Source: Streptomyces katrae (lineage in GTDB: Bacteria > Actinomycetota > Actinomycetes > Streptomycetales > Streptomycetaceae). Taken from it: a DNA stretch of 64,000 bases. The position numbers were made by a program, and so were the translations under genes. The DNA is taken from positions 1-64,000 of the forward strand of contig NZ_JNZY01000025.1 of NCBI RefSeq assembly GCF_000717655.1. The letters are read 5' to 3'. Positions 6,180 to 32,636 of this stretch are shown in pieces (the stretch's first letter is position 1; the number at the start of each line of letters is the position of its first letter). The notes beneath the pieces were generated by a model, which saw only the letters and a list, made by a program, of their open reading frames with translations, ran no database searches and had not been told where the DNA came from.

Positions 6180-6705
6180 GATGCCGGCCGCGCCCCCGCG
6201 TAGCCGAAGGCGTGAGCGGGGCCGTCAGCCCGTGGTCGGCGGACAGGGCCTCCAGCAGGGCGAGGCGCTCCCGGTACGGGCGGGACAAGAGCTTCACCCC
6301 GTCCAGCTGCGGCACGTCGAACGCGACGAAGTAGGCCGGCCACCGGGCGGCCAGTTCGATCCGCCGTGGCCGCGGGCGGCGGCCCGGCGCTGCAACGCCT
6401 CGAACGACAACCGGCCCCTCTCCGGGTGCCACACCAGCAACTCGCCATCGCGTACCAGGCCGCCCGGCAACTGCTGCGCGGCAGCCTCGAGGAGATCCGG
6501 GAACCGGTCCTGCACGAGGAAACCGCGCCGGGTCTGCACCACCACCCGACCTCCTAGGCTGGCCCCGGTGAACAAGAGCGCCCGTGCCCCTCGAACTTCT
6601 GCTCAAACGCCAGCGGGCCCAGCACACCCGGGCCCGGCACCGACTCCGCAGCCTGCGCCGGCATCGGCTCCACCGGCGGACAACGTCACCCAGGAACCTC
6701 CTCAA
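6180..6705 (-). pseudogene. ATP-dependent DNA ligase fragment (copy a)
   Basis: Several frames together give PGVLGPLAFEQKFEGH, then LLFTGASLGGRVVVQTRRGF, then LVRDGELLVWHPERGRLSFE, then WPAYFVAFDVPQLDGVKLLS. This is the nucleotidyltransferase domain of an actinobacterial ATP-dependent (LigC/LigD-type) DNA ligase, with the motif I lysine in QKFEGH and motif III in VAFDV. A missing base just after EGH and further shifts downstream break it. The OB-fold C-terminus is absent. It is the longest of five fragments of this family in the window, and the only one that shows an uninterrupted AACTTCTG motif (6594-6601) at the active-site codon. Confidence 0.75.
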
Positions 6706-24960: not shown

Positions 24961-27345
24961 TCAGCCGGTCCAGGTCCAGTCGGCGACTTCGGGCATGTCG
25001 GTGCCGTGTTCGCGGATGAAGGCGTGGTGGCGGGTGCGGGCGTCGGCCATGGCCTGCCGTACGCCCACTGCGCGTACGGCGAGTCCGGGCACCCGGTCGA
25101 TGACGTCCATGACGAGGCGGTAGCGGTCGAGGTCGTTGCGTACGACCATGTCGAAGGGGGTCGTGGTGGTACCCATCTCCTTGTAGCCGCGTACGTGCAG
25201 GTGGCGGTGTCCGGTGCGGCGGTAGGCGAGCCGGTGCACAAGCCAGGGGTAGCCGTGGTAGGCGAAGATCACCGGCTTGTCATGGGTGAAGAGAGCGTCG
25301 TACTCCCCGTCGGTCATGCCGTGCGGGTGCTCCTCGTGGGGCATGAGGCGGGTCATGTCGACCACGTTCACCACCCGGACGACGAGGTGGGGCAGGTGTC
25401 GGCGCAGCAGGCCGGCGGCGGCCAGGACCTCTTGGGTGGGTACGTCCCCGGCGCAGGCGAGGACAACGTCGGGTTCGCGGCTGCCGTCGTCGGTGCCGGC
25501 CCATGCCCACATTCCGGCGCCCCGGGCGCAGTGGGCGCGGGCTTCGTCCAGGGAGAGCCAGTCGAAGCAGGGCTGTTTGCCTGCGACGACCACGTTGACG
25601 TAGTCACGGCTGCGCAGCACGTGGTCGGCCACGGACAGCAGGGTGTTGGTGTCCGGCGGCAGGTAGACGCGGACGACTTCGGGGCTTTTGTTGAGGACGT
25701 GGTCGACGAAGCCCGGGTCCTGATGGGAGAAGCCGTTGTGGTCCTGGCGCCACACGTGGGACGTCAGCAGGTAGTTCAGCGAGGGAACGGGGGCGCGCCA
25801 CGGCAGGGCGCGGGAGGTCCTCAGCCACTTGATGTGCTGGTTGACCATGGAGTCGACGATGTGGACGAACGCCTCGTAGCAGGAGAACAGGCCGTGGCGG
25901 CCGGTCAGCAGGTATCCCTCCAGCCAGCCCTGGCAGGTGTGTTCGGAGAGGATCTCCATGACGCGGCCGTGCCGGTCGAGGTGTTCGTCGGTGTCCAGGA
26001 CCGGCTCCTGCCATGCCTTGCCGCTGGCCTCGTACACCGCCTGCAGGCGGTTGGAGGCGGTTTCGTCGGGGCCGACGATCCGGAAGTCACGGCGGTCGGC
26101 GGTGGCGGCCATGACGCCCTCCAGCAGATCGCCGAGGATGCGGGTCGGCTCGTGCTGCGTACTGCCCGGCCGGTCCACGGAGACGGCGAAGCGTTCCAGG
26201 GGCGGCATGGGCAGGTCCCGTACCAGCAGGCCGCCGTTGGCGTGTCGGCTGGCGCCCAGCCTGCGCCCGCTCTCCGGTATACAGGCGAGCACCTGCGCCC
26301 GCGGCCTGCCCTCCTCGTCGAAGAGCTCCTCGGGGCGGTACGAGCGCAGCCAGGATTCCAGTTGTGCGCGGTGTTCCGCGTTGTCACGCACCCCTGGCAG
26401 CGGAACCTGGTGGGAGCGCCAGGTGCCTTCGACGGGCAGGCCGTCCACCTCTCGGGGGCCGGTCCAGCCCTTCGGCGTACGCAGGACGATCACCGGCCAT
26501 CGCGGCCGGCCGTCCTGTCCGCCGGTGCGGGCCTCCTGTTGGATGTGCCGGATGCGGTCGAGGGCCGTGTCCATCGCTGCCGCCATGGCCCGGTGGACCC
26601 TGCGGGGGTCGTCGCCGGTGACGTGGAAGGGCTCGTGACCGTAGCCACGCAGCAGCTCGTCGAGTTCCGCTTCCGGGAGTCGCGAGAGCACGGTCGGATT
26701 CGCGATCTTGTAGCCGTTGAGGTGGAGGATGGGCAGCACCGCGCCGTCGTGGACGGGGTCGAGGAACTTGTTGGAGTGCCAGGAAGCAGCGAGCGGCCCC
26801 GTCTCCGCCTCGCCGTCACCGATGACGCACGCCACCAGGAGGTCAGGGTTGTCCAGCGCGGCGCCGTACGCGTGCGACAGCGAGTACCCCAGTTCACCAC
26901 CCTCGTGGATCGAACCGGGAGTTTCGGGCGCCACGTGGCTCGGCACCCCACCGGGAAAGGAGAACTGCCGAAACAGGCGGCCCATGCCTTCCTCGTCCCG
27001 GCTCACGTCCGGGTAGGTCTCGCCGTAGCTCCCCTCCAGCCAGGAGTTGGCGAGCACGGCGGGACCGCCGTGCCCAGGCCCCCAGATGCACAGGGCATCG
27101 AGACCACGACCTCGGATCACCCGGTTGAGATGGGTGTACACGAGATTCAGGCCGGGAGACGTGCCCCAGTGCCCCAGCAGCCGCGGCTTGATGTCCTCCG
27201 CCTCCAGCGGCTTCCTCAGCAGCGGGTTGCCCATGAGGTAGATCTGCCCGGCCGACAGATAGTTCGCCGCCCTCCAGTGGGCGTCGAGCGAGCTGAGCTC
27301 GTCGTCGGTCAGCGGTACGCCCTCCGGACGCTGGTCACTGCGCAT
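24961..27345 (-). CDS. xfp: D-xylulose 5-phosphate/fructose 6-phosphate phosphoketolase
   Basis: 794 residues, the full family length. The ATG at 27345 follows GGGAGGA. Thiamine-diphosphate signatures: [40 protein letters not shown] and [20 protein letters not shown] (GDGE...N magnesium/TPP motif). It cleaves xylulose-5-P or fructose-6-P with phosphate to acetyl phosphate plus an aldose phosphate. It is cytosolic and bypasses part of glycolysis without NADH formation, which suits an oxygen-limited programme. It stands alone, with an imperfect box 131 bp upstream. Confidence 0.95.
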
Positions 27346-27475
27346 GCTTCCTCCCTCGTCGCGGTCCCCCGCGGCCTGTGGACCGGACCGCCGGCATCGG
27401 GGGCGTGTGATCCCTGCGTCTGTAACGGATTCACCCCGACACGGCACGGTGACACAGGCAGAAGGCCCCCAAGAA

Positions 27476-27489
27476 GGGCCGGATGGGCC
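27476..27489. promoter_or_regulatory. imperfect DevR/OsdR-type box GGGCCGGATGGGCC
   Basis: Nine of ten positions; its core equals the box at 21629. It is upstream of the phosphoketolase. Confidence 0.4.
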
Positions 27490-27631
27490 ATCCACAGATC
27501 CCGGCTTCCGCGCCCGGGCTCCGCGCCGTGATCACGGAACCGAACCAGCGGATACACAGGGTCACCGCCTGCGCCGTGCTCACACCCGACGCCATCCGGC
27601 CCAGCGGTTCAGCAAGGGTGGGACCGGTCGA

Positions 27632-29145: not shown

Positions 29146-29288
29146 GTCGCCGTCGGGCAACTGCTCCGCGGCGGCGACCAGGTCAAGGAAGCGGTCCTGG
29201 ATTAGTAAGCGCCGCCGGGCCTGGAGGAGCACCCTGCCATCCGGGCCGGCCGGGGTGAAGAGGAGGGGCGGTGGCCGTCGAACTTCTG
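29146..29288 (-). pseudogene. DNA ligase fragment (copy b), left side of the insertion
   Basis: On the minus strand QKFDGHR (motif I) is followed, one frame over, by LLFTPAGPDGRVLLQARRRL and LIQDRFLDLVAAAEQLPDGD. The upstream side ends exactly at the CAGAAGTT codons; the matching N-terminal piece is 890 bp away as copy c. Confidence 0.75.
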
Positions 29289-30187
29289 TTATGCGCTGCT
29301 GGACCGTCCGCCGCTTCGGCATCGCATCGCTCGGACCATGCCATGCGGAATCGACTCGTCTCTCTTCGAGAACCCTGGCACTCTGCCCCTCATGCAGCAT
29401 GTAGACCCCATCGACCAGGCGCGACGTCTCGTCCGCAGCCGTTTCCCGGAAGCGCTCTCCGTCGTCCTCGCCGGCTCCACGGCTACCGGAAGAGCCACTG
29501 CCAGCAGCGACCTGGACATCGCGGTGCTCATCGAGGATGGCGGCGCGACCTGCCGCGAGACGATCCGGTTCGAGGAACGTGTCGTAGAACTCTTCGTCCA
29601 CACCCGTACCGGTCTCCTGGAGCTCTTCGCCGCAGACGTCGCCGCACGGCGGGCGGTGCTTCAGAACATGTATGCCTCCGGTCTCGTTCTGGTCGACTCC
29701 AAGGGCGAGGCCGGGCGCGCTCGCGCGCTGGCCGAAGCGGACCTTCGTGAAGGTCCGCCTGCATTGGAACCAGAGACAATCGATACGAAACGTTACGGTC
29801 TGACGGATGCGCTGGACGACCTCGCTGACGCGAGCGACCCCGTCGAGCGTCTGGCCGTGGCCGGGTACGTGGTCAATGCCGCCGCCGATCTGCTCTGCGA
29901 CCACCATCACGCGTGGATCGGCGGCGGGAAGTGGTTCCCCCGCCGCCTGTTGGAAGCCGACCCACACCGCGGAGCCGCCCTTCTCGAAGGACACCACCGC
30001 TTGTGCGGCTCAGGCGAGCCCACAGCACTGATCAGCGCAGCCTCGACGGTGCTCGACCTCGTCGGCGGCCCCCTCCGCGAGGGCTACCGCAGAAACTGGC
30101 ACGGCACCATCGACTCGGTTGCCGCGACGCGCTAACGAGACCGCCAACACCGCAGCGGACAACTGGCAACCCCGTCCATAACTTCTG
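29281..30187. mobile_element. segment inserted at the ligase active-site codon, flanked by AACTTCTG
   Basis: AACTTCTG at 29281-29288 and again at 30180-30187 bracket about 890 bp. Outside the repeats the two halves of one DNA-ligase fragment resume (copies b and c). Copy a shows the uninterrupted site at 6594-6601. Just inside, GTTATG and CATAAC form a 6-bp inverted pair overlapping the repeats. The only gene inside is a nucleotidyltransferase. The 8-bp repeat looks like a target duplication; no transposase or integrase is present. Confidence 0.55.
29392..30135 (+). CDS. MNT-type nucleotidyltransferase-domain protein
   Basis: 247 residues. The nucleotidyltransferase motif is VVLAGSTATGRATASSDLDI (GS-x9-SDxD), with a third acidic position likely in ERVVELFVHT. 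The C-terminal ~120 residues are helical (LTDALDDLADASDPVERLAV; FPRRLLEADPHRGAALLEGH), resembling the helical tail of aminoglycoside-type or MNT proteins. It would transfer a nucleotide to a small molecule, protein or RNA. There is no HEPN partner next door. The start is uncertain: no strong ribosome site, and ATG 29338 is an alternative. It is the sole gene of the inserted segment. Confidence 0.75.
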   Translation: MQHVDPIDQARRLVRSRFPEALSVVLAGSTATGRATASSDLDIAVLIEDGGATCRETIRFEERVVELFVHTRTGLLELFAADVAARRAVLQNMYASGLVLVDSKGEAGRARALAEADLREGPPALEPETIDTKRYGLTDALDDLADASDPVERLAVAGYVVNAAADLLCDHHHAWIGGGKWFPRRLLEADPHRGAALLEGHHRLCGSGEPTALISAASTVLDLVGGPLREGYRRNWHGTIDSVAATR

Positions 30188-30325
30188 CTCCAAGGCCAGA
30201 CCGCCCGCCAAGACGCCAGGACCGGGGACGGACTCGGCGGCCTGGGCGGCCTGGGCGGCCTGGGCGGCCTGGGCGGCCTGGGCGGCCTGGGCGAGCATCG
30301 GCTCGAAGGGCGGGGGCTGACCACT
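30180..30325 (-). pseudogene. DNA ligase N-terminal fragment (copy c), right side of the insertion
   Basis: The minus strand reads PPPFEPMLAQAAQAA (repeated), then ESVPGPGVLAGGLALEQK, which is the start of the ligase adenylation domain up to the motif I lysine. It stops at the AACTTCTG repeat. An AQA/QAA expansion interrupts the normal MLAQAAESVPG. Confidence 0.75.
30236..30289. repeat. six tandem 9-bp GGCGGCCTG units
   Basis: Exact tandem copies within ligase copy c, in frame on the minus strand (QAA repeats). The probable origin is replication slippage. Confidence 0.9.
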
Positions 30326-30630: not shown

Positions 30631-32412
30631 TCAGAGCATGTTCTTGTAGATGTTCCACCCGGTGCCGAACTTCACCCGGGGGGCGAAGGTAGCGGTGCCG
30701 CTCTTGCCCGTCGAGGTGTACGTGTACACGTCGCCTCCCGGGAGCCGGGCCATCAGGTCGCCCTTGCTGTCACCGTTGATGTCGCCCGGGACGAACAGCG
30801 TGTCGTACTGGCTGAAGCCGCTGCCGACCTGCTCCCGGGCGGCGAAGGGCGCGCTGGCCGTGCCGGTGCCCTTGTAGAGGAAGAGACCGCCGGCGGTGTC
30901 CCGGGCGAGCAGGTCGGGTCGCCCGTCCCCGGAGTAGTCGCCCGCGCCGACGAGGGTGTTGTAGGCGTTCCAGCCGGCGCCGACCTTGATGCGCGTGCCG
31001 AACTTCGTGTACGGCAGGCCGTCACCGGGGTGCAGCCACAGGACGCCGGCGGAGTCACGGCTGACGAGGTCGCCCTTCCCGTCGCCGGTGAGGTCGCCGG
31101 GGCCGGCCATCATGGTGTAGTTCCACGACGTGCTGACCTTCACGCCGCGGACGTAGAGGTCGGTGCCGATGTTCTGCACGTAGCTGGCGTGGTTGTGGCT
31201 GTTGAGGCCCGTGGCGTACGTGTTGCGGGAGCCGGGCGTCTCCCTGCCGGCCTCGTACGGCGGCGAGTAGTAGGTGCTGTTGGCCAGGGCGTGGTACTTG
31301 ACCAGGACGTTGTCAGTCTGGGTCATCACGTTCTGGCCCTTGCCGAAGAGCGATGTGGTGCCCGCGCCGACGATGAACTTGTTGAGTTCGTAGCCGCTGC
31401 CGAAGTAGGCGGGTGCGGCGAACTTGCCGCCGCCGATCGACTTGAACCAGTACTCCACGCCGTCGTGGTTGCGGGCGAGCAGGTCGCTGCGGCCGTCGCC
31501 GTCGCCGTCGTCCGAGCCGGTGATCACGTTGTACGTGTTCCAGCCGGTGCCGACCTTGACGGCGGGCTTGAGCGGGGCCGTGGCGCTGCCGGCTCCCTTG
31601 TGGAACCACAGCTCGCCGGCCAGGGTACGGGTGAGGACGTCGCCGATGCCGTCACCGTCGACGTCATTGGCGCCCACGACCTGGTCGTAGATCCCCCAGC
31701 CGGAGCCGACCTTGACCCGGGAGTTGAAGGGCTTGCTGACCGTCCCGGTTCCGGTGTACAGCCACAGGTCACCGGCGGGGTCCCGGGCCAGCAGATCGGG
31801 GCGGCGGTCGCCGGTCAGATCGCCGGTGGCGATGAGGCGGTTGTAGATCTGCCAGCCGCGGCCCGACCACAGGGGCGCCGAGGTGCTCTTCACACCCGCC
31901 TCGTAGAGCGTGAGCACGCCGTCGAACGTGAGTGAGAGGAGTTCGGGCCGGGTGGTGCCGCCGACGTCGCCGACCGGCAGTAGGTCCTTGAACGAGGCCT
32001 CGGGATCCGGATCGGTCTTGATGATCGTGTAGTCGCTCCAGGCCTTGATCGATGACAGGTAGACCGCCGTGACCTGGTCGTACTCCATGACGATCATGTC
32101 GCTGACGCCGTCGCCGTCGACGTCGTGCCGCGGCTTGGCGGCGGCGGCCACTTGGGCCGGGACCCTGGCCGGCATGACGACGGTCGGGAGTCCTTGGCCG
32201 CCGGCCGTTCCGGTCACGGCCGACGGACCCGGCGCCGGCACGGCCGGGCTCGGCACGGCCAAGCTCGGTGCGGCGATACTCGGCGTGCCCAGGCTCGGCG
32301 CGGCGATGCTCGGCGCGGCGGCCAGAGCGCCGGCGGCCAGGACGAGAACGCTCCCGGCGGCCAGGGCGCGCAGCCGTCTGCGCTGCGGTGACGTGCGATG
32401 CGATGTAGTCAA
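30631..32412 (-). CDS. secreted FG-GAP/VCBS-repeat protein
   Basis: 593 residues from a TTG at 32412, chosen because AGGGGGGA lies five bases upstream; earlier in-frame starts lack one. The signal region RRRLRALAAGSVLVLAAGAL is followed by a low-complexity APSxAxPSxxVP linker. About eight integrin-alpha-like repeats follow, each with a calcium loop of the DxDGDGxxD type (HDVDGDGVSDMIV; GDLTGDRRPDLLAR; NDVDGDGIGDVLTR; GDINGDSKGDLMAR). It should fold as an extracellular calcium-binding beta-propeller. No enzyme domain is present. Function unknown, possibly surface binding. Confidence 0.88.
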   Translation of the reverse strand: MTTSHRTSPQRRRLRALAAGSVLVLAAGALAAAPSIAAPSLGTPSIAAPSLAVPSPAVPAPGPSAVTGTAGGQGLPTVVMPARVPAQVAAAAKPRHDVDGDGVSDMIVMEYDQVTAVYLSSIKAWSDYTIIKTDPDPEASFKDLLPVGDVGGTTRPELLSLTFDGVLTLYEAGVKSTSAPLWSGRGWQIYNRLIATGDLTGDRRPDLLARDPAGDLWLYTGTGTVSKPFNSRVKVGSGWGIYDQVVGANDVDGDGIGDVLTRTLAGELWFHKGAGSATAPLKPAVKVGTGWNTYNVITGSDDGDGDGRSDLLARNHDGVEYWFKSIGGGKFAAPAYFGSGYELNKFIVGAGTTSLFGKGQNVMTQTDNVLVKYHALANSTYYSPPYEAGRETPGSRNTYATGLNSHNHASYVQNIGTDLYVRGVKVSTSWNYTMMAGPGDLTGDGKGDLVSRDSAGVLWLHPGDGLPYTKFGTRIKVGAGWNAYNTLVGAGDYSGDGRPDLLARDTAGGLFLYKGTGTASAPFAAREQVGSGFSQYDTLFVPGDINGDSKGDLMARLPGGDVYTYTSTGKSGTATFAPRVKFGTGWNIYKNML

Positions 32413-32636
32413 GATCCCCCCTGAGGATCGAGCCGTGGGGCTCTGCCCCGGCACACGTCACATGTGTGTCCGGTATCACGCGTCCGTGCGTGAACGGCCC
32501 CCCGCTTCCGTCCGTGCACGCTGAGCCCCGTCACCGACGTTCACGCCGGCACGATCACTCCGGTTCCCGTTCCCGGCAGATCAGTTGGGCTTTCTGCACC
32601 GGGCGTGTGAGGACGACGTGCCGGCGCGTCTCCTGC

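Follow-up and report, generated by a model that had tools for sequence, protein, structure and literature searches.

A one-gene cassette in a Streptomyces katrae ligase pseudogene, probably a member of a Streptomyces family of site-specific elements integrating at the catalytic-lysine codon

The stretch of DNA analysed here, called the window below, comprises 64,000 nucleotides of Streptomyces katrae (contig NZ_JNZY01000025.1, positions 1 to 64,000). A decayed gene for an ATP-dependent DNA ligase is split in it at the codon of the motif I lysine by an insert of 893 bp carrying one gene (Table 1). A sequence-only reading of this DNA had placed a segment of ~890 bp between two halves of one ligase, exactly at the active-site lysine codon, and both points are borne out by the junctions, read directly as GTCGAA-CTTCTG-TTATGCGCTGC on the left and CCCCGTCCATAA-CTTCTG-CTCCAAGG on the right. 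On the minus strand, the right flank encodes the N-terminal part of the ligase (...EPMLAQAAQ, with AAQ repeats, ...ESVPGPGVLAGGLALEQK) and the left flank the post-lysine part, QKFDGHR, while the CTTCTG core reads CAG AAG, that is, glutamine and the motif I lysine. Past the lysine the ligase is frameshifted and runs out near 29150, so that the window copy is a pseudogene today. The halves do not come from different source genes, since in Streptomyces sp. NRRL F-2580 (locus L031) an insert of the same kind occupies the same codon with longer readable ligase on both sides. The N-terminal remnant contains nine-base GGCCTGGGC repeats (30226-30302, AAQ on the ligase strand), which the L031 ligase lacks. 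A related ligase copy, likewise indicated earlier, is uninterrupted at 6594-6601, with its CTTCTG site intact. Two minus-strand open frames of the window are one of 844 aa, which we take to be a phosphoketolase (24961-27495), and one of 607 aa with what by eye are presumably FG-GAP/VCBS-like repeats (30631-32454).

Table 1. Features of the insert and of the ligase remnants in the window
Feature	Positions	Strand	Remarks
Whole element, putatively non-autonomous, 893 bp	29289..30181	+	ends align with those of 20 other two-ended elements; copies in G054 and L031
Left junction 6-bp core CTTCTG (codons CAG AAG, Q-K, minus strand)	29283..29288	.	
Right junction 6-bp core CTTCTG	30182..30187	.	
Left terminal motif TTATGCGCTGCTGGACCGTCC (family consensus TTATGCGCTGTTGAGCTGTCC)	29289..29309	+	
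Right terminal motif GCGGACAACTGGCAACCCCGTCCATAA (family consensus ACAACGG.CA.....AAACCCTGTCCATAA)	30155..30181	+	
Cargo gene, MNT-type nucleotidyltransferase, 247 aa, from ATG at 29392	29392..30135	+	PF01909
Ligase remnant, N-terminal part to the motif I lysine, with AAQ repeats	30182..30298	-	
Ligase remnant from the motif I lysine on, frameshifted; lower limit approximate	29150..29288	-	readable as ligase in L031
Second ligase remnant, CTTCTG site uninterrupted; extent by eye	6240..6680	-	

The GTTATG/CATAAC pair noticed earlier at the ends of the insert belongs to the real termini of an element family, left TTATGCGCTGYTG... and right ...CTGTCCATAA, in which TTATG.../...CATAA form a 5-bp inverted repeat. 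A search with the left stretch gave genomes whose similarity extends over 30-40 bp spanning the ligase junction before they diverge; the 121-bp left stretch also matched, apparently by chance, places away from ends. In 392 genomes of the genus, a scan for the left-end pattern GTTATGCGCTGYTGRNCTGTC, allowing up to two mismatches, gave 49 sites spread over 38 genomes, against 9 for the control pattern read backwards (a figure counted from the control columns). Ligase motif I, read in a core-fixed frame, is the site of 31 of the 49 left ends; these come from 26 genomes and fall into 24 clusters when their flanks are grouped at 85% identity over 90 bp. The earlier claim that motif I is targeted is supported. 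The others comprise three element-to-element junctions, three sites sharing KWDG only and 12 other sites, seven of which were judged true elements (L119, L120, L123, L125, L126, L128, L132) and five chance matches. As a background, the motif I regular expression matches 347 of 601,537 positions; among the 3,844 of them that have a core-like 6-mer it matches 80, the loci searched including the ligases themselves. The ligase domain PF01068 is found at E < 0.001 in 10/10 left-flank fragments, picked from 45 mostly for length; eight exceed the Pfam cut-off and two (L056 and L131) fall below it. Right flanks read as a ligase N-terminus in several elements.

With right ends added, 21 two-ended elements are obtained, ranging from 583 to 29,393 bp; the window unit, which has the two termini and, at either junction, a core, is one of them, and three are nucleotidyltransferase cassettes. 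Two were accepted with a changed right end (TATAA in L061, GATAA in L130), and the stretch fetched yielded no right end for many of the left ends. The 6-mers at the two junctions are unequal in 13 of the 21 elements and equal in eight, including the window unit. Unequal 6-mers fit a core present as one native and one brought-in copy, the arrangement of strand-biased circularizing integrative elements (SEs) and Tn554-type elements in the accounts available (PMC10214605, PMC12486829). The direct repeat AACTTCTG of the sequence-only reading has to be shortened: the same 8 bp do stand on both sides, but the repeat proper is the 6-bp core CTTCTG, and the extra AA is contributed at one junction by the right end of the element (CATAA) and at the other by the ligase flank (GTCGAA). 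A DDE-transposase element or a MITE making an 8-bp target duplication AACTTCTG would account for the two identical 8-bp copies flanking short inverted termini in the window, and for the eight elements with equal 6-mers; it is made very improbable by the unequal 6-mers of the other 13, by the sequence specificity of the insertion site and by the tyrosine-recombinase genes beside the left end in larger members. An identical target-site duplication as such is ruled out by the unequal cores.

Several members lie outside recognizable motif I. Three of them (L119, L125 and L128, in G189, G262 and G104, respectively) have one non-ligase site in common, GTGC-CTTTGG and similar, and carry broken recombinase genes; this is a second preferred site of the family. 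In G141 and G314 the right side is ligase-like and the left flank has only KWDG in common with ligase, while the right side of the G319 element adjoins an inverted end, with no ligase. In the latter, an 18.9-kb element (L157/L114), CTTCAT and then a right end in inverted orientation, TTATGGACAGGG, come after the right end, as though another element adjoined it head to head. The flanks of these three elements likely reflect rearrangement after insertion. An exact-pattern scan of viral contigs returned one contig, by eye the sequence of the G007 element.

The nucleotidyltransferase gene is the sole gene found in the window unit. Its product, with a start codon chosen by eye from relatives, matches PF01909 (Pfam, E 7.2e-7), matches the MntA model below that model's cut-off, and gives weak matches to the aminoglycoside nucleotidyltransferase 4ebj (profile match, E 0.0029) and to PADLOC candidates. 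Relatives occur in 88 of 392 genomes (E <= 0.001). At the DNA level, a match in G054 covers nearly the whole unit, while in most genes compared, at ~65-79% identity, the alignment covers the gene alone, without element ends, and because of these gene-only matches we read the nucleotidyltransferase as an ordinary gene that was captured, a passenger. Elsewhere the same ends enclose DUF899, TetR with a zinc dehydrogenase, or an aldehyde dehydrogenase with a flavin oxidoreductase. The sequence-only reading had suggested a minimal mobile unit with the MNT-type nucleotidyltransferase as its working product; the mobility and the ligase motif I target stand, while the role assigned to the nucleotidyltransferase does not, given the unrelated cargo of other members, the relatives without ends, and the tyrosine-recombinase module of the larger members. 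Because other members have unrelated genes between these ends, the nucleotidyltransferase is rejected as the mobiliser.

Since homing elements select the codons of invariant residues, it could be imagined that the window unit is a homing-type element, inserted at the lysine codon through the action of its only visible gene, the nucleotidyltransferase; as the same ends carry DUF899, TetR with zinc dehydrogenase and other unrelated cargo, and related nucleotidyltransferase genes match without the ends, this is the reading to which we give the smallest probability. A homing intron or intein, spliced out to leave the host gene working, was also considered and rejected: the cargo gene and the ligase have opposite orientations, and the ligase sequence past the insert is frameshifted.

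Only the window, L031 and G054 have the nucleotidyltransferase cassette with both of its ends. The L031 insert is 901 bp long, has both ends and interrupts a better-preserved ligase at the same codon; the cargo protein is 97% identical to that of the window. G054 carries an 88% identical copy with both ends and the cores CCCGCG/CCCGGG, at a site with no ligase frame visible. A copy with a ligase left flank has lost its right end in G134, and one in S. flavotricini (L034) is without the left end, has a changed right end (CCATGG) and adjoins a CTTCTG that, by eye, again resembles the ligase site. In a search of the plasmid collection the window cassette was absent. A nucleotidyltransferase at an unrelated site without repeats would have spoken against a mobile unit; the G054 copy does so only in part, because near-repeats are present there too. 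Since it is two-ended and lies elsewhere, the cassette has moved at least once, which says nothing about the present mobility of the window copy. The ligase-site copies may descend from one insertion. The window unit would then be a relic, an old ligase insertion, inherited since, of a cassette no longer moving; the pseudogene state of the window ligase, the lack of a close recombinase in this genome and the same-codon insertion common to NRRL F-2580 and G134 agree with that, and the two-ended copy at another site in G054, proof of at least one move though not of present mobility in the window, argues against it. We regard a relic as unlikely.

For some other members of the family, recent movement is indicated by sequence comparison. 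Element A (3.6 kb; LacI-type regulator, TIM-barrel protein and oxidoreductase) is 95-99% identical in G040, G343, G091 and G104 (loci L063, L117, L132 and L127), with three different flanks among the four genomes, those of G040 and G104 being alike. Between copies with different flanks, identity starts 12-25 bp before the element, within the ligase motif, and stops 4-83 bp after it. In G040 and G104 a further element, B, follows A directly, with the joined junction GTCCATAA-CTTCTG-TTATGCGC; in G236 the start of element B sits at the ligase site where the other two have A and then B, and is 97-98% identical to theirs over the ~800 bp compared. Tandem junctions of this kind suggest the formation of circles joined as CATAA-N6-TTATG.

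Five larger members, 13.9-29.4 kb between the ends, have a four-gene module just inside the left end, followed by cargo: those on plasmid NZ_CP130719.1 (Streptomyces sp. NBC_01334) and in G314, G141, G319 and G275. The NBC_01334 module proteins are of 500 (the tyrosine recombinase IntA), 610, 694 and 133 aa, with a 121-aa open frame in between. In Pfam searches IntA has a SAM-like integrase domain above and a catalytic domain below the cut-off, the 694-aa protein has a SAM-like match only, below the cut-off, and the 610-aa protein has no match. R241, H402, R405, H452 and Y461 of IntA, presumably the catalytic residues, are invariant in 11 sequences, and Y446 and Y520 of the second and third proteins, which we also take to be catalytic, are conserved in three relatives. 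Frame breaks or insertions occur in the modules of G275, G141 and G319; in NBC_01334 the gene for the 610-aa protein is internally duplicated and encodes an odd C-terminus, and the G314 module is unbroken as judged by tblastn alone. Several elements retain the first 34 to 115 codons of the tyrosine recombinase, starting 42 bp inside the left end. Directly behind the module of G314 (L115), ~5.9-6.9 kb inside the element, lies a complete-looking ATP-dependent ligase frame of the EQKPDGFR type, so this element carries a relative of the gene type that the family interrupts; ligase remnants occupy the same place in G275 and NBC_01334, and none was detected behind the module in the 14 kb searched in G141 and G319.

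In a class-wide search (E <= 1e-30) relatives of intA at 34-37% identity occur in 5 of 296 genomes, and the plasmid collection yields 224 matching records, of which a single one exceeds 80% identity and all others stay under 60%. Two of the plasmid loci (L149 and L150, from Streptomyces sp. NBC_01243 and Rhodococcus fascians D188, respectively) have the same four-gene order with no ligase annotated nearby, and so the module family is wider than its ligase-targeting branch. The window genome has no close intA, with only two distant relatives of 31% and 30% identity.

Systems of a known kind are recognized in these elements: they are of the type of GInts, SEs, RITs and Tn554-related transposons (PMC5385486, PMC10214605, PMC3414803, PMC12486829). 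GInts are genomic islands with three integrases, encoded by ginABCD, and the hosts named in the text available are Bacteroidetes, Firmicutes, Verrucomicrobia and Proteobacteria (PMC5385486). The larger relatives described here resemble them in that a four-gene module occupies an end of the element and is followed by cargo of varying length, in having a preferred site, and also in imperfect junction repeats compatible with 6-nt staggered cuts (PMC5385486). Site-specific insertion with imperfect direct repeats of the GInt type is seen at the level of the family (31/49 left ends at motif I, 13/21 elements with unequal 6-mers), the window 6-mers being equal. The window unit lacks a ginABCD-type operon, and the four-gene set of the five larger relatives is likened to it by order alone. 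The GInt targets are an ABC transporter gene and ssb, not ligase motif I, and single-gene derivatives like those of the present family do not figure in the part of the GInt description available (PMC5385486).

SEs, with the gene set IntA-Tfp-IntB-Srap and, in the text available, described from Gammaproteobacteria alone (PMC10214605), are like the larger relatives in the number and order of genes and in a 6-bp spacer of which one copy is native and the other brought in. The window unit has no IntA-Tfp-IntB-Srap set. A possible difference concerns the native 6 bp, located in SEs on the intA side (attL), with the brought-in copy at attR (PMC10214605); in G275 and NBC_01334 the arrangement is the opposite, and L110 leans the same way. 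These two clear cases and one leaning case make up the comparison, poor ortholog matches not being counted. All seven ligases best matching G275 have the right-junction residue; for NBC_01334 the right junction is matched by the nearest relatives (L166, L167, L172) and the left by two more distant ones (L169, L170); for L110 the residue of the right junction (attR) is found in 22 of 26 relatives, and that of the left (attL) in the closest one, P0122. The native 6-mer thus seems to be the one at the end away from intA, contrary to the SE arrangement.

Tn554-related elements with two recombinases are described in Actinobacteria, including Streptomyces plasmids (PMC3414803), and resemble the present family in site specificity, tyrosine recombinases and a 6-7 bp att sequence that is brought in (PMC3414803, PMC12486829). 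A gene resembling the target gene is found behind tnpABC of Tn552-II (PMC12486829), which recalls the ligase gene behind the G314 module. The Tn554-related elements have tnpA/tnpB and tnpC, none of which is present in the window unit, while the larger relatives have three large proteins and a small one; the ligase target, the single-gene cassettes and the tandem arrays also set the present family apart. What is new here is a lineage of actinobacterial elements that targets ligase genes and includes single-gene cassettes as well as tandem arrays; among the literature matches listed, taken at the level of titles and abstracts and covering few subscription papers, there was no report of ligase motif I as a target or of single-gene derivatives.

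The unit in the window is very likely a non-autonomous cassette of a Streptomyces family of site-specific elements whose integration site is the motif I (catalytic-lysine) codon of ATP-dependent ligase genes; there is no module in the unit and no close intA in the genome, hence its description as non-autonomous and presumably moved in trans. The module proteins, supplied in trans, would join both ends across a 6-bp spacer to form a circle with the junction CATAA-N6-TTATG, arranged as at tandem elements. The circle would recombine with the ligase motif I core and leave, after integration, the native 6-mer at one junction and the brought-in 6-mer at the other, and the window cassette would have arrived by such a trans event. 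Motif I may be a good landing place, because the codons around the invariant lysine are alike in many ligases of the genus and the loss of a ligase gene seems to be tolerated.

A broader proposal, to which we give somewhat less than an even chance, is that of a gene-exchange system spanning the genus Streptomyces and resembling integrons. Tyrosine-recombinase elements, some on plasmids and some with their own relative of the target ligase, would serve in trans many cassettes of one to a few genes, which would line up in tandem at a common landing site, the ligase catalytic-lysine codon, and shuttle ordinary genes between species. The likeness to integron gene cassettes is one of working: small units, varied cargo, tandem arrays and a recombinase acting in trans. 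In contrast to integron cassettes, the present units possess a pair of termini and a target gene that is conserved.

Understanding of GInt, SE and Tn554-type elements is poor, and the papers cited, as far as their available text goes, describe them mostly outside Streptomyces (PMC5385486, PMC10214605, PMC3414803, PMC12486829). One-gene cassettes of ~1 kb offer a compact substrate for learning which ends and proteins are needed and how cargo is captured. Insertion by this family, which reuses some of the most conserved codons of DNA ligase, accounts for split ligase pseudogenes, and the family may show how genes without visible mobility travel among antibiotic-producing bacteria.
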